64,000 nt of DNA. It comes from an uncultured Candidatus Entotheonella sp. (GTDB lineage Bacteria; Tectomicrobia; Entotheonellia; Entotheonellales; Entotheonellaceae). The stretch covers positions 3,397,300 to 3,461,299 of the forward strand of contig OX639990.1 in assembly GCA_951828535.1 (NCBI GenBank), given 5' to 3'. The notes under the pieces were generated by a model, which was given only the letters and a program-made list of their open reading frames with translations, had not been told where the DNA came from and did no database searches. The position numbers were made by a program, and so were the translations under genes. Below, one piece after another: positions 21,829-37,005 of the stretch (its first letter is position 1; every line of letters begins with the position of its first letter).

Positions 21829-22887
21829 ATGCACATTGACTCGGTGCTCGGGCGGGTTCGCGGCTGCATTCGGACGATGCACGGGTACGTTCCGGGCAAG
21901 CAGCCCGCACAAGGGCAGTACGTCAAGCTGAACACCAACGAAAATCCGTATCCGCCGTCACCCGCGGTGCTCAAGGCGCTGCGCGAGGCAGTCAACGCGG
22001 ACCTGCGGTTTTACAGCGATCCGCTGGCCACGCCGCTGCGCGAGCAGGCCGCCCAACACTACGGCTGCGCGGTGGATGAGGTCATCGTTGGCAACGGCTC
22101 CGACGACGTGCTGACGATGATTTTCCGTACCTTTCTGGACGCCGGGGACATCCTGGCCACGCCGGCGCCGAGCTACTCGCTGTACCAAGTGCTCGGGGCG
22201 TTGCAGGATGCCGACTACCGGGAAATCCCCATGGGCCCCGATTACACCCTGCCAGACGGCCTCGACGCCTGCGGCGCCAAACTCGTTTTCATCGTCAATC
22301 CCAACGCCCCTACCGGCGTGTTGCATCCCGGCAGCGCGCTGCGCGATTTCCTGGCGCGCAGCGACAGCATGGTCGTGCTGGACGAAGCCTATGCCGATTT
22401 TGCCGGTGAGAGCGCCATCGACCTTCTGCCCGAGCTTCCCAATTTGATCGTGGTGCGGACATTCTCGAAATCGTACGCGCTGGCGGGCATGCGCTTGGGG
22501 CTGGGTTTTGCGCGCCGCGAAGTCATTGCGCAGATGATGAAGGTGAAGGATTCGTACAACCTCGACCGCCTGGCGATTGTGGCCGGTTGCGCGGCGCTGC
22601 AGGATCAGGCGTGGCTGCGTGAGACGACGAGCCGCATCGTCGACACGCGCACAAAGGTCCTGGAGGCATTGACGGCCATGGGGCTGCACGTGCCGCCTTC
22701 ACGGAGCAACTTCGTGTTCCCACGCATCCCGGATGGGCGCGCCGCCGAGGTCTATCGAGCCCTCGAAACGCGCCGCATCCTGGTGCGCTACTTCACCGCT
22801 CCGCTGGTCGCCGATTCCTTGCGCGTGACGGTGGGAACGGACGACGACATGGCCGCTTTTGTCGAGGCGCTAGGCTCTCTGCTGTAG
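21829..22887 (+). CDS. hisC: Histidinol-phosphate aminotransferase
   Basis: 352 residues, fold-type I PLP aminotransferase. The PLP lysine is in RTFSKSYALAGMRLG, the NPNAPTG motif binds PLP, and LNTNENPYPPS at the N-terminus is typical of HisC. It converts imidazole-acetol phosphate and glutamate to histidinol phosphate; some homologues act on aromatic amino acids. It stands alone, not within a his operon, which leaves an aromatic or broad-specificity role open. ATG follows AGAGGACAGAC. Confidence 0.93.
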   Translation: MHIDSVLGRVRGCIRTMHGYVPGKQPAQGQYVKLNTNENPYPPSPAVLKALREAVNADLRFYSDPLATPLREQAAQHYGCAVDEVIVGNGSDDVLTMIFRTFLDAGDILATPAPSYSLYQVLGALQDADYREIPMGPDYTLPDGLDACGAKLVFIVNPNAPTGVLHPGSALRDFLARSDSMVVLDEAYADFAGESAIDLLPELPNLIVVRTFSKSYALAGMRLGLGFARREVIAQMMKVKDSYNLDRLAIVAGCAALQDQAWLRETTSRIVDTRTKVLEALTAMGLHVPPSRSNFVFPRIPDGRAAEVYRALETRRILVRYFTAPLVADSLRVTVGTDDDMAAFVEALGSLL

Positions 22888-22904
22888 GAGGGTCAAATGA
22901 GCGA

Positions 22905-22941
22905 TGGCGAGTGAACGGCAGACGGCACCGGCCACTCGCCA
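22905..22941. terminator. Stem-loop between convergent hisC and amtB
   Basis: TGGCGAGTG at 22905-22913 pairs perfectly with CACTCGCCA at 22933-22941 (19-nt loop) between two convergent genes. There is no T-tract, so it may be a Rho-assisted or weak bidirectional terminator. Confidence 0.45.
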
Positions 22942-22958
22942 ACAAATCCACTGCCCCT

Positions 22959-24335
22959 TTAGCGGGAGCTGGTGGCGGAAACGAAATCGCTGTATGCCGG
23001 CATGCCGTGCTCGCCTTGATCCAGCCCTTCCACTTCCTCTTCCTCCGACACCCGCAGACCGATCACGGCTTTGATGATGCCGAAGAATACCAGGGAGGCC
23101 ACCACGCAGACGACGCCGTAGGAGACGATACCGACGATCTGCGTGACCAGTTGTCCGGCCCCGGCCTTGGCCCCGAAGATGCCCACGGCCAGGGTTCCCC
23201 AGATGCCGCAGACGAGGTGGACGGACACCGCGCCCACCGGGTCATCCACCCGGATGCGGTCGAAGAAGACAACGGAGAAATACACGATCACACCGGCGAT
23301 CAGGCCGATGAAGAAGGCCGAGTGCAGCCCCATAAGATCGGCGCCGGCGGTGATGCCCACCAGTCCGGCCAGAATGCCGTTCAGGCCCATCGACAGGTCC
23401 GGCTTCTTGGAGAAAATCCAGGAGGTGTACATGGCGCCCAGGCCACCGGCAGCGGCGGCGATGCACGTGGTCATCAGGGTCAGTGAGGTGGCGCCCGGGT
23501 CGGCGCTCAGGACAGAGCCGCCGTTAAACCCGAACCAGCCGAGCCACAGCAGAAAGACGCCGATGGTAGCCAGCGGCATGTTGTGGCCGGGAAGGGCGCG
23601 AATCCTGTCGCCCACATATTTGCCCCGTCGGGCGCCCAGCATGATGGCGCCGATAAGCGCCGCCCAGCCGCCGACGCTATGCACCAGCGTGGAGCCGGCG
23701 AAGTCATAGAAGCCCATGGCGTCCAGCCAGCCGCCGCCCCATTTCCAGGAGCCGGCCCAGGGGTAGATCAGGCTCACGTACAGCACCGTGAAGATCATGA
23801 ACGAGCTCAGCTTGATGCGTTCGGCCACGGCGCCGGAAACGATGGTGGCCGCGGTGGCCGCGAACATGGCCTGGAACAGGAAGTCCGTCCAATACGTGTA
23901 GCCCTCGTTGTAAGCCTGCGTGACGCCCGCCCCGTCGGTGCCCAGCCCGAATCCCGCGAAGCCCAGGAAGCCGTTGAAGTCGCCCGGATACATCAAGTTA
24001 AAGCCGATGTAGGCGTAACTGATAATGCCGAAACAGATGATAAACGTGTTCTTGAACAGAATGTTGACGGTGTTTTTCTGCTGCGTCAGCCCGCTTTCCA
24101 GCGTCGCGAAGCCCAGATGCATGAGGAAGACCAAGCCGGTGCAGAGCATCATCCACAGGTTGTTGGCCGTGAAAACGCCCATGGACACGGTGTCCTCGGC
24201 CGGTGCCGCTGCCTCGGCTGCCCCCTGTGCGGGAGTGGTGTCCTGGGCCAGCGCCGCCGCCGTCGTGAACGCGACCGCGAACGCGACGAGAAGCAACAAG
24301 GTTGGAAGCCATTTCGGAGCGCGTCGGGTGTACAT
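22959..24335 (-). CDS. amtB: Ammonium transporter
   Basis: 458 residues from the ATG at 24335 after ACAGGAGGCAATC. A signal peptide (ending near AAALAQ) and a short Ala/Pro/Thr linker precede eleven predicted membrane helices. MHLGFATLESG matches the Amt selectivity-vestibule helix, and the pore twin histidines sit in LVHSVGGWAALIG and VSVHLVCGIWG. It conducts ammonium across the inner membrane. No glnK/PII gene is adjacent, unlike the usual glnK-amtB pair. A sigma-54 promoter at 24406-24422 and palindromes further upstream, plus the divergent NifA/NtrC-like gene, point to nitrogen control. Confidence 0.96.
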   Translation of the reverse strand: MYTRRAPKWLPTLLLLVAFAVAFTTAAALAQDTTPAQGAAEAAAPAEDTVSMGVFTANNLWMMLCTGLVFLMHLGFATLESGLTQQKNTVNILFKNTFIICFGIISYAYIGFNLMYPGDFNGFLGFAGFGLGTDGAGVTQAYNEGYTYWTDFLFQAMFAATAATIVSGAVAERIKLSSFMIFTVLYVSLIYPWAGSWKWGGGWLDAMGFYDFAGSTLVHSVGGWAALIGAIMLGARRGKYVGDRIRALPGHNMPLATIGVFLLWLGWFGFNGGSVLSADPGATSLTLMTTCIAAAAGGLGAMYTSWIFSKKPDLSMGLNGILAGLVGITAGADLMGLHSAFFIGLIAGVIVYFSVVFFDRIRVDDPVGAVSVHLVCGIWGTLAVGIFGAKAGAGQLVTQIVGIVSYGVVCVVASLVFFGIIKAVIGLRVSEEEEVEGLDQGEHGMPAYSDFVSATSSR

Positions 24336-24405
24336 GATTGCCTCCTGTACAGGTGGATCGTGTCGGGTTGAGATGCCGTCCTCGGAGTTGGCTGTTCCGT
24401 GGTAG

Positions 24406-24422
24406 AGCAATTCTTATGCCAG
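24406..24422 (-). promoter_or_regulatory. Sigma-54 promoter of amtB
   Basis: Read on the minus strand the site is CTGGCATAAGAATTGCT: GG (24420-24419) and GC (24408-24407) are exactly 10 bp apart, the spacing required by sigma-54. The predicted start is near 24396, about 60 bp before the amtB ATG. Confidence 0.75.
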
Positions 24423-24529
24423 CCGGCGCGGGTCCGGCCATCGGATCGCTGAAGCGACGCGGAGTCAATGATTTATGTGCTTCCGTGTGTCGAATCGGAA
24501 CCGCGCGAGGCCGGCCCGACGGGTCATGC

Positions 24530-24581
24530 CCGACAGTTTTGTCGGAAAGACAACATTGTTGTGTCCGGGCACAACAATGTT
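24530..24581. promoter_or_regulatory. Palindrome cluster, putative upstream activator sites
   Basis: Three overlapping or adjacent inverted repeats: CCGACA-N4-TGTCGG (24530-24545), TTGTC-N5-GACAA (24539-24553) and the 12-bp perfect AACATTGTTGTG-N6-CACAACAATGTT (24552-24581). They lie ~135-190 bp upstream of both divergent sigma-54 promoters, where enhancer-binding activators normally bind. The half-site does not match the classic NtrC or NifA consensus. Confidence 0.6.
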
Positions 24582-24693
24582 CGGCTTTTTGTCGTTGATT
24601 GATCGGTGGTAGGAACCGGCGGTTGGGTATGTGGGTCTTCAAGGATCGCGGGTTTACGTTGGCCACAGCGCATATTTCGCGATTTTTCGGGCG

Positions 24694-24710
24694 TTGGCAT
24701 ACAACTTGCT
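24694..24710 (+). promoter_or_regulatory. Sigma-54 promoter of the activator gene
   Basis: TTGGCATACAACTTGCT on the plus strand, with GG at 24696-24697 and GC at 24708-24709 spaced by 10 bp. The predicted start is near 24720, about 85 bp before the chosen ATG at 24806. The site lies inside the reading frame that a longer N-terminus would need, which supports the shorter start. Confidence 0.7.
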
Positions 24711-24805
24711 CCATTAACGCAATCAAAAGTCGTATTCGATTACCCGGCACCGGCCGTCCTCTCCCGGCCGGTGCCGGGCGGAGCCGAACCCAGGAACCCG
24801 CCAAC

Positions 24806-26341
24806 ATGCCAGCACCCGTTGCCGAAAAAACGCAGCTCACCACGCTTGTGGCGGTGAGTCAGGCTCTGGCCAGCACTCTGCACCTGGAAGCCGCCCTGCA
24901 CCGGGTGTTGGAATTGCTCGAGCGTCACCACGCCATGTTTCCGAGCATCGTTACCCTGTTCAAGGGCAAGTCGGCGGAGCTGACGATCGCCGCGGCGCAT
25001 GGCCTGACACCGCGGGGCAAGCAGGCGCGTTATCGCTTGGGGGAAGGCATCACCGGGCGGGTGACCGAAAGCGGCAAGCCGATCATCGTGCCGCGCATCA
25101 GCCACGAGCCGATGTTCCTCAACCGCGCCGGCGAGCGCAAGAATCTGCACAAGCAGGACCGGACGTTCATCTGCGTGCCGGTGGTTATCAATCGCCGGGC
25201 GGTGGGGTCGCTGGGGGTGGATTTACGCTTCAAGGACGACCGCGACTACGACCGCGAGTTGCACTTCCTACAGGTCGTTGCGTCCATGATCGCCCAGGCG
25301 ATCAACATCTCGCACCTGGTCGAAAGCGAGAACGATCGCCTGCGAGACGAGAACGAGCATCTGCGCGGGGAACTTCGGGAGCGCTACGATTTTTCCAACA
25401 TTATCGGCCACAGCAACCGCATGCGGCAGGTTTACGAGCAGATCACCCAGGTAGCGCCGGCCAATACCAACGTGCTGATTCGCGGCGAATCGGGTACCGG
25501 CAAGGAACTGATTGCCCACGCCATACACTACAATTCGGTGCGCGCCAAGCGGCCGTTCGTCAAGGTGAGTTGCGCCGCGCTGCCCGAAACCCTGATCGAA
25601 GCCGAGCTGTTCGGACATGAAAAAGGGGCCTTCACCGGGGCGGACGCCCGCAAGAAGGGACGCTTCGAGCTCGCCGACGGCGGCACCCTGTTCCTCGACG
25701 AAATCGGCGACCTCAGCCTCGCCACCCAGGTGAAACTGCTGCGCGTTCTGCAAGAGCGCGAATTCGAGCGGCTGGGCGGCACCGCCACGATCAAGGCCAA
25801 CGTGCGGCTACTCACCGCCACCAACCGCGACCTCGAGAAAGCCATCGCCGACGGGTCGTTCCGTGAGGACCTCTACTATCGCCTGAACGTCTTCAGCATT
25901 TTCGTGCCGCCGCTGCGTGAGCGCCGCGACGATGTGCTGCTGCTGGCCGATTACTTTTCGGAGAAGTACGCCCGGGAGAACCACAAGCCGATCAGGCGCA
26001 TTTCGACGCCGGCAATCGACATGCTGGCCAGCTACCACTGGCCGGGCAACGTGCGGGAGTTGGAAAACGCCATCGAGCGGGCCGTGCTGGTGTGCGAAGG
26101 GCAGGTCATCCACGGCTACCATCTGCCGCCCACGCTGCAAACGGCGGAAGCCTCCGGCACCCTGGCGCGCGTGTCGCTCAGCGAGGCGGTGGACAGCTTC
26201 GAGAAGGATATGCTGATGGATGCTCTGAAAACCGCGCGCGGCAATCGCGCCAAGGCTGCCAAGCTCCTCGGCACCACCGAGCGCATCATGCGCTACAAGG
26301 TGAAAAAGTACGCCATCGACTGCAATCGCTTTCGCAATTGA
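24806..26341 (+). CDS. NifA/NtrC-type sigma-54-dependent activator with GAF domain
   Basis: 512 residues from the ATG at 24806. A GAF sensory domain (about 20-165) and a short coiled-coil linker lead to the AAA+ module with Walker A GESGTGKE (about 227), GAFTGA (274-279, the sigma-54 contact loop) and Walker B TLFLDEIGD. The C-terminal Fis-type helix-turn-helix RGNRAKAAKLLGTTERIMRY is characteristic of NifA-like proteins. It should drive sigma-54 promoters in response to nitrogen or redox signals. It has its own sigma-54 promoter and shares upstream sites with amtB. Its last ~70 bp are duplicated at 28832-28935. Confidence 0.93.
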   Translation: MPAPVAEKTQLTTLVAVSQALASTLHLEAALHRVLELLERHHAMFPSIVTLFKGKSAELTIAAAHGLTPRGKQARYRLGEGITGRVTESGKPIIVPRISHEPMFLNRAGERKNLHKQDRTFICVPVVINRRAVGSLGVDLRFKDDRDYDRELHFLQVVASMIAQAINISHLVESENDRLRDENEHLRGELRERYDFSNIIGHSNRMRQVYEQITQVAPANTNVLIRGESGTGKELIAHAIHYNSVRAKRPFVKVSCAALPETLIEAELFGHEKGAFTGADARKKGRFELADGGTLFLDEIGDLSLATQVKLLRVLQEREFERLGGTATIKANVRLLTATNRDLEKAIADGSFREDLYYRLNVFSIFVPPLRERRDDVLLLADYFSEKYARENHKPIRRISTPAIDMLASYHWPGNVRELENAIERAVLVCEGQVIHGYHLPPTLQTAEASGTLARVSLSEAVDSFEKDMLMDALKTARGNRAKAAKLLGTTERIMRYKVKKYAIDCNRFRN

Positions 26342-26372
26342 GCCGGGCGTCAACACGCCACTAGAGCAGCGG
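26268..26372. repeat. Direct repeat A (activator 3' end), left copy
   Basis: 105 bp covering the last 25 codons of the activator, its stop and the following 31 bp, including a GGCGT-N4-ACGCC stem. It is repeated nearly exactly at 28832-28935 (a few substitutions and one deleted base). The two copies flank the accessory island. Confidence 0.85.
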
Positions 26373-26383
26373 ACCTGCCGCCA

Positions 26384-26475
26384 TGGCCTAGCCCAACGAT
26401 ATACCAGTTACGAGTTGCCAGCGACAAGCAAAAGGAACACGCAAGCACTCAATCCTATGCGATCGTTCATGAGGA
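26384..26475. repeat. Direct repeat B, left copy
   Basis: Sequence starting TGGCCTAGCCCAAC, related to 28637-28757 at the other end of the island, with scattered differences and a small tandem duplication in the right copy. In both places it is followed by an IS3 left-end sequence. Confidence 0.7.
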
Positions 26476-27145
26476 TGAACCTGGCCCCCGTGTTGATCGG
26501 GCACTTGGCATCGCTGGGCAGACTTGGGGATATCCTCAGGGACAGGCTGATGGCGGATGACTAGCAACGGAGCGAGGGCATCACGGCAACGCCGCGCCGG
26601 CCTCGGTAGACGGCCAAAGCAGACGCTGCGCATGGTCGAAGAGAGCCAAGAAAGTGGCAAGCGCATCTCGGCACTGGCGCGCCGTCGGCGGTGTAGCAGC
26701 CAATCTTGCGGATACTTGGCGCCGACTGATGGCAGTGGGAGGGGTTACTGCGTTGAATGCCTGGCGAGTGCGTGGCGAGCATCTCTGACCGCGAGAGCAC
26801 CGCCCTGGCGCGCTACCGGAATCAGCGGTTCGGAGGAGCGTGACGGGATACTTGAGACCGTCGAGACACGCTTTGGCGCTTGTCGAGGGACTCTACAACA
26901 ATGGCTCGCCTTATCCTGCCGAGGGCTCACGGCACTTCGCCACCCAACTCATTCTGGGGCCGTGCTGCACGCCGGTCAAAAGTCCCGAAGCAGGCGGCAT
27001 GACGGAAGCCTGCCTACGCACCTTCAAGCGGGACTAGGCGCGACTCAATCCACCCACCCACACGCAGGGCTCGCCATACCCTCGCCCCGCCAGTTCATCA
27101 GAGCCCAATAACCCACCCAATGTGTCCAGATAAACGGGGGCAACA
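26476..27145 (+). mobile_element. Decayed, internally deleted IS3-family (IS2-type) element
   Basis: This ~670-bp stretch matches both ends of the complete IS3-family element at 41894-43210, but lacks the middle. The left part is homologous to orfA (including EESQESGKRISALARR), now broken by stops. The right part is homologous to the end of orfB (NNGSPYPAEGSRHFATQL). The ends TGAACCTGGCCCCC and CGGGGGCAACA match the intact copy's terminal repeats. No functional transposase can be made. The divergence from the intact copy shows it is an old insertion. Confidence 0.8.
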
Positions 27146-27299
27146 AGATGGCTGAGCGGTGCAGACCTCTGCCGCGGCATGCCTCGGCAACATGGACGAG
27201 TTCGCGTGCCATTTTCAGAATACTCAGGCGATGGGCGGCGAACTGGTTTGCGGCTTCGCGTTTTCGACGGTTTTGAACCTGTCGTGTAGGAGGTGCCAT
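27146..27299 (-). pseudogene. N-terminal fragment of an IS481-like transposase
   Basis: Read leftward from 27299, about 50 residues resemble the N-terminal helix-turn-helix of IS481-type transposases: a lead-in QNRRKREAANQF, then HRLSILKMARELVHVAEACR. The similarity ends where the IS3 remnant begins at 27145, so that element appears to have inserted into this gene; the rest of the transposase is missing. The call comes from motif memory and needs a database search. Confidence 0.5.
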
Positions 27300-27396
27300 G
27301 ACAATCTACCTTCGCCGCTTGATAGCACGGAAAGAAGGTGAAGATGACACCTCAACAAACTTGGGCCTCACGATACATGTGGCAGCAATTCACTGC

Positions 27397-28578
27397 TTAT
27401 GAGTAATCCCCATCCGAGAGAACGGTATCGCCGGCGATATCAGCATCCCCATGGACATGAGCATTCCCATAGACCCAAGCATAGCCATAGACCCGAGCAT
27501 TCTCATAGACCCGAGCATGTTCATAGATCAGAGCATTCCCGTAGATATGAGCGCCCTGCTTAACCTCACCACTGCCATAAATCAGAGCATTCCCATAGAT
27601 CCTGGTATGCCCATGGACCCGAGCATTCTCATAGACCCGAGCATTCTCATAGATCCAAGCCTTCCAACGGACATAAGCATTCCCATAGACTCGAGCATTC
27701 CCATAAACCTTCACGTTCCCCAGTCCAGAATCCCCATTGAGCTGAGCCTCGTCATAGACCTGTGCATTCCCGTACACCAGGGCATTCCCATAGACCTGAG
27801 CATCGCCATAGACCTGAGCATTCCCATAGACCCGAGCATCCTCATAGACCCGAGCATGCCCGTAGACCTGAGCATTCTCATAGACCTGGGCATCCCCATA
27901 GACCCGAGCCTTGTATGAAATCTGAGCATTGTTATAGATCCGAGCGCCCCCAGAGACCCGGGCACTGCTGAAGACCTGAGCATCATCATAGACCTGAGCA
28001 TGCCCATAGACCTTAGCCTTGTGATAGACCCGAGCATTCCCATAAATCTGAGCCTTCCAAGAGATCTTAGCCTTTCCGTAGATCCGAGCATTCCCATAAA
28101 CCTTCACGTTCCCCAGTCCAGAATCCCCATTGAGCTGAGCCTCGTCATAGACCTGTGCATTCCCGTACACCAGGGCATTCCCATAGACCTGAGCATTGTC
28201 AAGGACCCGAGCATCTCCGTAGACCCTAGTATCGTCAAGGATCCAAGCATCCCCATAGACCCGAGCATTTCCATAGATCCGCGTATTCCCATCAAGCCTT
28301 ACGTTCCCAGGGCCTGAATCCCCAAAGACCTGGGCATTCCTATATACCTCAGCATTGCCAGAGACCCTAGCAAAGTCGCTGACACGAGCAGCGTTACAGA
28401 CCTCAGCGTCCGGGCCGACATAGGCAGTCGCACTCACAGTCGCCGTGCCCGCCACAAAGCCGCCGCCGTTGGCGTGAGCGGCGCCGCCTCCACCACCACA
28501 AGGAGCTGATAAGGCAAAGGATGCGTACACGCATATGACTGCAAGCTGAATCAAAAACCCGGTGATCATTCGTCTCAT
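27397..28578 (-). CDS. Secreted hexapeptide-repeat (beta-helix) protein
   Basis: 393 residues. A signal peptide (about 1-24, ending FALSA) and a Gly/Ala-rich spacer precede roughly 55 tandem hexapeptides of the type VYGNAR, VYGDAQ, IYGNAL, which run nearly to the C-terminus. The period of six with a small aliphatic residue at the first position and Gly/Asn/Ala after it predicts a left-handed parallel beta-helix of about 18 coils. No catalytic or acyltransferase motif is visible. A 112-bp block is repeated exactly inside the gene (131 codons apart). It is the only intact gene of the accessory island; an exported or surface structural role is inference. Confidence 0.75.
   Translation of the reverse strand: MRRMITGFLIQLAVICVYASFALSAPCGGGGGAAHANGGGFVAGTATVSATAYVGPDAEVCNAARVSDFARVSGNAEVYRNAQVFGDSGPGNVRLDGNTRIYGNARVYGDAWILDDTRVYGDARVLDNAQVYGNALVYGNAQVYDEAQLNGDSGLGNVKVYGNARIYGKAKISWKAQIYGNARVYHKAKVYGHAQVYDDAQVFSSARVSGGARIYNNAQISYKARVYGDAQVYENAQVYGHARVYEDARVYGNAQVYGDAQVYGNALVYGNAQVYDEAQLNGDSGLGNVKVYGNARVYGNAYVRWKAWIYENARVYENARVHGHTRIYGNALIYGSGEVKQGAHIYGNALIYEHARVYENARVYGYAWVYGNAHVHGDADIAGDTVLSDGDYS
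27692..27803. repeat. Exact 112-bp internal duplication, copy 1
   Basis: Identical to 28085-28196, offset 393 bp (131 codons), within the hexapeptide-repeat gene. Both copies encode the irregular block with AQLNGDSGLGNVKVYGN, so the repeat array grew by segmental duplication. Confidence 0.9.
28085..28196. repeat. Exact 112-bp internal duplication, copy 2
   Basis: Second copy of 27692-27803 within the hexapeptide-repeat gene; the match breaks immediately outside these limits. Confidence 0.9.
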
Positions 28579-36132: not shown

Positions 36133-37005
36133 TTACTGGTTCTGGAAGAGTCCGCCGGCCCTCCAGTCGTGCTGACCCGAAGCCGTCCGGTTGTTGCCGC
36201 CGCTGACGCTGGCATAATCGCCGCTGGCCTCATTGTATCTGCCGCCGCTGACGCTGGCAGCAAGGCCGCTGGCCTCGTTGTCCCGACCGCCGCTGACGCT
36301 GGCAGCAGTATCGCTGGCGTCGTTGCCGGAACCGCCGCTGACGCTGGCATGATAGTCGCTGGCTTCGTTGTCGACACCGCCGCTGACGCTGGCATAATAG
36401 TTGCTAGCCGTGTTGTTATAACCGCCGCTGACGCTGGACCGAGAGCCGCTGGCCTCATTGTTTTTGCCGCCGCTGACGCTGGCAAAAGTGCCGCTGGCCT
36501 CGTTGTTGTTACCGCCGCTGACGCTGGCATAAAGACCACTCACCGTGTTGCCGTAGCCCGCCACCAGACCGCCATAACTCGAATAGCTGTGCTGAGGACC
36601 AATCACCACGTTATGCGAGCCACCGCGGGCAGGAGAGCCAGCACCACTCTCATTGTAGCCAATGATCAGATTGCCAACGCCATTGCTGCTAGCGGTGCTT
36701 CCACTGCCGTTTTGCACATGCACGTTGCAGCCTCTAAAAACCACGTCATCGACTGCTTGCCCCGAAACAGAAACGATATCCATACAGTCCGAAAGCGCAG
36801 GCAAAGCTGCAATGTTGGTTGTATTGGTCGCAGTGTCCGATGCCACGGCGGCGAGCTGGCTTTCCAGCGCAAGAACCCGGACCGCTAGCTGGGCAATCTG
36901 GGCTTGCAACTGGGCGTGGGTCTGCGCCGTAGCTGGCGGAGCGGCCTTGAGGACAAGACCACCGCACACCACCATCAGTACCAGGGTCTTCATGAGTGGG
37001 GTCAT
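36133..37005 (-). CDS. Secreted beta-roll repeat protein (YadA-head-like repeats)
   Basis: 290 residues from the ATG at 37005 after AAGGAGGGAATTGAAG. A signal peptide (ending near PPATAQ) leads to a short coiled coil (THAQLQAQIAQLAVRVLALE) and a Cys-containing linker. Eight tandem 15-residue units of the form SVSGGxxNxASGxxA follow, ending in a short tail WRAGGLFQNQ. Such repeats build the beta-roll heads of trimeric autotransporter adhesins, and the coiled coil could trimerize it. There is no C-terminal membrane anchor, so it would be released or bound by other means. The tail QHDWRAGGLF is known from other anchorless repeat proteins. The function is unknown. Confidence 0.75.
   Translation of the reverse strand: MTPLMKTLVLMVVCGGLVLKAAPPATAQTHAQLQAQIAQLAVRVLALESQLAAVASDTATNTTNIAALPALSDCMDIVSVSGQAVDDVVFRGCNVHVQNGSGSTASSNGVGNLIIGYNESGAGSPARGGSHNVVIGPQHSYSSYGGLVAGYGNTVSGLYASVSGGNNNEASGTFASVSGGKNNEASGSRSSVSGGYNNTASNYYASVSGGVDNEASDYHASVSGGSGNDASDTAASVSGGRDNEASGLAASVSGGRYNEASGDYASVSGGNNRTASGQHDWRAGGLFQNQ
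36189..36535. repeat. 45-bp tandem repeats in the beta-roll gene
   Basis: Eight near-identical 45-bp units, each containing GCCGCTGACGCTGGC and a variable centre, in frame with the protein repeat. They are coding repeats, not CRISPR. Confidence 0.9.

Follow-up and report, generated by a model that had tools for sequence, protein, structure and literature searches.

The window analysed here, 64,000 nucleotides from an uncultured Candidatus Entotheonella genome, holds an ammonium transporter gene, amtB, and an activator gene that diverge from a 470-bp region; judged from sequence, this locus appears to be the hub of a nitrogen regulon. In the reading that we consider probable, a one-component, NifA-like nitrogen-starvation activator would work through operators of the form ACA-N4-TGT to drive amtB, its own gene, glnB-glnA and urtABC. 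Computation directly gave the promoters and operators with their conservation and spacing, the activator's clade and the target genes; that the activator itself binds the sites, that it acts positively and that it activates its own gene we infer. The features of the locus are:

22962-24335, minus strand: amtB-type ammonium transporter gene, 458 aa (PF00909, E 3.9e-117; TIGR00836 above cut-off)
24406-24421, minus strand: sigma-54 promoter of amtB, TGGCATAAGAATTGCT, perfect consensus match
24533-24542, no strand: candidate operator site 1, ACAGTTTTGT, ACA-N4-TGT
24553-24562, no strand: candidate operator site 2, ACATTGTTGT, overlapped by a further match, ACAACATTGT, from 24550
24571-24580, no strand: candidate operator site 3, ACAACAATGT, ACA-N4-TGT
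24695-24710, plus strand: sigma-54 promoter of the activator gene, TGGCATACAACTTGCT, perfect consensus match
24743-24778, plus strand: hairpin in the activator 5' leader, perfect 14-bp arms and 8-nt loop
24806-26341, plus strand: GAF-AAA+-Fis enhancer-binding activator gene, 511 aa (PF00158, PF25601, PF02954, PF13185)

A sigma-54 promoter had been predicted for both genes, and both are indeed present, matching TGGCAY-N5-TTGCW with zero mismatches. Since the whole 3.6-Mb genome has 13 perfect matches against 8 for a reversed control pattern, a lone perfect match proves little; computed from these 13 matches, however, the expectation is ∼0.002 sites per 470-bp divergent region, and two correctly oriented promoters in one such region are far beyond chance. 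Sigma-54 itself is encoded in the genome. The window's third perfect match, at 36390, was rejected as a promoter because it sits inside a GCTGACGCTGGCA tandem repeat (36345-36405) and is thus a look-alike. No glnK adjoins the pair, as the original prediction had noted; the genome's two P-II genes are located elsewhere.

Between the promoters, a CCGACA/TGTCGG palindrome and a 12-bp perfect inverted repeat had been described. Both exist (CCGACAGTTTTGTCGG at 24530-24545; arms at 24552-24563 and 24570-24581), and all the palindromes so named contain a 10-bp unit, ACA-N4-TGT, that had been missed. The cluster consists of three copies of this unit, beginning at 24533, 24553 and 24571, 20 and 18 bp apart, or roughly two turns of the helix. 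They lie upstream of both promoters, as expected, although at distances somewhat shorter than the ∼135-190 bp first given: their starts are 121-159 bp from the amtB promoter and 124-162 bp from that of the activator. The half-sites had been said to follow neither the NtrC nor the NifA consensus, and this was supported, both consensus sites having been tried as operator and rejected; the closest NtrC-like match of the region, with three mismatches, falls outside the cluster, and the NifA site TGT-N10-ACA occurs once, at 24540, and has a z of 2.5 upstream of homologues. Counted end to start, operator pairs with a gap of 6-24 bp are confined to four places in this genome; of these four, only the window's intergenic region has several.

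A second genome of the same genus (G001), whose amtB is 95% identical, separates what is conserved in this region from what is not. Positions 24533-24562, spanning sites 1 and 2, are identical at 28/30 positions, with flanks at 56-63%, and the amtB promoter is identical at 15/16 and still perfect. Site 1 reads ACAACTTTGT in place of ACAGTTTTGT, with one base inserted, and is still ACA-N4-TGT; site 2 is identical at 10/10 positions and site 3 has one core mismatch (ACGACAATGT). The activator promoter is weakened to TGGCATACAATTCGCC in G001, where the gene is broken. The proposed check of conservation in related genomes thus came out in favour of the amtB promoter and of ACA-N4-TGT at sites 1 and 2, and against the 12-bp repeat, which is no longer perfect in this genome. 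For this reason the AACATTGTTGTG inverted repeat was rejected as the recognition unit, which on the sequence is better read as ACA-N4-TGT repeated on one helix face. It is scarcely credible that the inverted repeat is instead an intrinsic terminator: a consensus scan does score 24552-24581 and the following CGGCTTTTTG as terminator-like, but amtB and the activator are both transcribed away from it, so that no known transcript ends there, and G001 conserves neither its arms nor the T-run, although it does keep ACA-N4-TGT at sites 1 and 2. The terminator reading was therefore dropped.

The activator gene of G001 is a remnant, with deletions near its 5' end and internally, and is then cut at an IS5-like transposase gene (identified by eye from reading frames). 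This remnant occupies L133:3340-4200, and the DNA up to an SGNH-hydrolase gene (window about 28924) is missing. No other orthologue of the window's activator was found in G001, yet its amtB, glnB and urtA promoters retain their sites, which would mean either that the loss is recent or that another protein is able to use the sites.

The original prediction had also called the pair a self-contained module, and this did not hold. A pattern-only search of the genome for further sites at sigma-54 promoters, suggested at the time as a check, found ACA-N4-TGT at glnB and urtA as well; perfect sigma-54 sites with an operator 100-160 bp upstream precede amtB, the activator gene, glnB and urtA. Downstream of glnB, a P-II gene, comes glnA (TIGR00653), and urtA-urtB-urtC were identified by TIGR03407, TIGR03409 and TIGR03408. 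Operators are again paired, ACATTTTTGT with ACAAAAATGc 20 bp on at glnB, and ACAAAGATGT with ACAAAAATGg 18 bp on at urtA, the second member of each pair having one core mismatch. The promoter of a nitrate/nitrite (NarK-type) transporter was not counted as a target because it has a single exact site, at -314. Relatives show the same architecture at nitrogen genes. In a genome of the same family (G003), operator and sigma-54 promoter precede ureD-ureA, three ABC transporters, of which one is a urea transporter (TIGR03427), and the activator gene; elsewhere they stand before amt (Spirochaetota and Verrucomicrobiota), a PII-uridylyltransferase gene (L049), a glutamine synthetase III (GS-III) gene (L059) and a P-II gene (G049). 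It is these additional sites that make the amtB/activator pair look like a hub.

The ACA-N4-TGT unit was first noticed by visual inspection of the window and four relatives and was then tested on all loci. In the 400 bp upstream of 44 full-length homologues it was counted 26 times, compared with 2.4 in shuffled sequence (z 14.7), and every other ACA/TGT spacing between 0 and 16 stays at or below z 3.1. Clade loci have 22 sites 60-260 bp upstream of sigma-54 promoters against 0.9 expected, a density of 4.0/kb compared with 0.16/kb elsewhere (25 times background); at sigma-54 promoters in the control loci of other activators there are none in 6.8 kb. Without the five seed loci that had first revealed the unit, there are still 10 sites against 0.7 expected (P about 3e-9). 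Exact pairs are 18, 20, 29, 30, 30, 30, 29, 29, 30, 41, 31 and 46 bp apart, that is, mostly ∼20, 30 or 40 bp and so mostly on one helix face (Rayleigh P about 0.001, an approximate value because some pairs share one locus). Only 12 of the 31 clade members have an exact site in the 400 bp preceding the activator gene, and a strict operator-plus-promoter pattern gave one match (G049, P-II/amt) in six other, distant genomes, so the operator sequence probably varies within the clade. Labels for the motif upstream of the activator are not clustered on the tree, and no single gain or loss can therefore be read from it.

It is conceivable, though we think it very unlikely, that the operator is real while the activator is chiefly autoregulatory, or in some lineages even represses a sigma-70 promoter of its own, with amtB activation secondary. 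In three loci (L065, L020, L060) the sites lie 48-119 bp before the activator frame and a sigma-54 promoter of its own was not found. Against this, both the window and G003 show a perfect sigma-54 promoter belonging to the activator gene, with sites upstream of it, and no sigma-70-like promoter was found in 24300-24850. Probable autoregulation, as in the original prediction, is supported.

The activator has GAF, AAA+, lid and Fis-type helix-turn-helix (HTH) domains. The GAFTGA motif of the AAA+ domain (in EKGAFTGADARKK), the Fis-type HTH, the genomic sigma-54 gene and the -24/-12 target promoters place it among sigma-54-dependent enhancer-binding proteins. Against the NifA model TIGR01817 it scores 527.3 bits, ∼1.5 bits short of the curated cut-off of 528.85, and its HTH reads RGNRAKAAKLLGTTERIMRYKVKK rather than the NifA-type GWVQAKAARLL-TPRQ. 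In a maximum-likelihood tree it belongs to a clade of 31 homologues (support 100/99) whose HTH is mostly GN..AA..L..T.R; nine proteobacterial proteins with the NifA-type HTH fall outside. Nor is it an NtrC, since a GAF domain takes the place of the receiver and an NtrC-type operator is lacking. One divergent sigma-54 pair from Lentisphaerota (L071:5829-5974), between an activator and a glutamate dehydrogenase gene, is without ACA-N4-TGT; the HTH of that activator differs, so its operator may differ too.

There are four true activators in the genome. Three were scored on NCBIfam and none is an NtrC by curated cut-off; the fourth (L238) was judged by eye only. The 600 bp upstream of each of the other three activator genes contain no ACA-N4-TGT, and no nifH above cut-off was found in this genome, G001 or G003. 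With neither nifH nor a bona fide NtrC found, the activator probably runs general nitrogen scavenging, a label that fits it better than nif control; a few members of the clade do, however, adjoin nifH. Relatives with nifH near the activator are L089, L056, L063 and L066; in L089, a Bacteroidota diazotroph, one ACA-N4-TGT site lies between the two genes. A second GAF activator in this genome, which has no detected nifH (L237:2139-3704; G000:C1 about 1,766,140-1,767,700; 521 aa), has a NifA-type HTH and scores 497 bits to TIGR01817.

This second GAF activator is the most plausible alternative owner of the sites, should they belong to another of the genome's enhancer-binding proteins, an explanation that we regard as unlikely. 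It would read the TGT-N10-ACA that forms where two ACA-N4-TGT units sit 20 bp apart: one is created at 24540, at the junction of sites 1 and 2, another arises at glnB, and the protein's HTH reads GGVQTRAAMLLGITPRQLGYKLKK. Moreover G001, lacking the window's activator, keeps the sites and has an activator that best matches this one. However, the one-base insertion in G001 turns the amtB junction into TGT-N11-ACA while both ACA-N4-TGT units are kept; the urtA pair gives an N8 junction; most pairs in the family are 29-31 bp apart and so have no N10 junction; and TGT-N10-ACA is hardly enriched in the family, with 2 sites upstream of sigma-54 promoters in clade loci.

Under the one-component activator model that we prefer, nitrogen shortage would be the trigger, perhaps sensed through the GAF domain as 2-oxoglutarate or a P-II protein, a signal carried over by analogy with NifA. 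Activator dimers would occupy the operators on one DNA face (24533-24580) and loop both ways to sigma-54 RNA polymerase, turning on amtB and their own gene, and the same operator pairs would bring two distant operons, glnB-glnA and urtABC (urea uptake), into the regulon.

The leader hairpin of the activator is strong and had been missed by the original prediction. The leader has a folding z of -3.95, and the hairpin can still form in G001, where both sides of its stem have changed; it may tune translation of the activator or stability of its mRNA. No Rfam match was found in 22000-27500. Just downstream of the activator, short frames at 26557-27111 resemble transposase remnants, and a 393-aa frame of VYGNARVYGNAQVYGDA-type repeats (27397-28578, minus strand) perhaps encodes a beta-helix surface or exported protein.

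Among known systems, NifA (TIGR01817) shares the GAF-AAA+-Fis architecture, sigma-54 dependence and TGT/ACA half-sites. The present activator differs in its sub-threshold score, its HTH and its separate clade; in the opposite arrangement of the half-sites, ACA-N4-TGT as against the TGT-N10-ACA documented for NifA, for example in PMC7294313 and PMC4999443; and in its targets, which are nitrogen-assimilation genes. With NtrC it shares its apparent role and targets (amtB, glnB-glnA) under sigma-54, but not the receiver domain or operator. Another is the EbpA-RpoN pathway of Leptospira interrogans, where, according to PMC12655853, a GAF-type enhancer-binding protein and sigma-54 control amtB, likewise outside proteobacteria; by that description EbpA differs in having two GAF domains and in being FhlA-like. 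Comparative genomics of Desulfovibrio vulgaris has likewise given TGT/ACA half-site operators upstream of sigma-54 promoters, but with TGT and ACA 9, 11 or 12 bp apart, unlike ACA-N4-TGT, in the main text of PMC4641369, which contains neither 'ammonium' nor 'amt'. Judged by title and abstract, the papers found on 'ACA-N4-TGT' deal with two-component systems (copper or antimicrobial-peptide resistance), and none deals with sigma-54. We did not find ACA-N4-TGT described in the open literature as an enhancer for sigma-54 activators; subscription papers lay largely outside this search, so the novelty of the operator is provisional. Provisionally, then, the system is of a known kind but its operator is apparently new, a conserved and seemingly undescribed element through which a NifA-like regulator probably exerts control.

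Most of what is understood about nitrogen control comes from NtrC, NifA and a few regulators of Gram-positive bacteria or cyanobacteria. We propose, tentatively, that a NifA-like clade reading ACA-N4-TGT might run a nitrogen regulon across phyla (Spirochaetota, Verrucomicrobiota, Myxococcota, Thermodesulfobacteriota, Bacteroidota and the window's lineage), from which nif control in proteobacteria may have branched by re-spacing of the operator. As NifA and the clade share the TGT half-site in opposite arrangement, nif control may derive from a general nitrogen-scavenging regulator, which would be a concrete case of sister regulators differing in operator geometry. The predicted operator and promoter together would make the nitrogen regulons of many uncultivated bacteria readable from sequence, and would suggest a means by which ammonium and urea uptake may be controlled where NtrC is absent.
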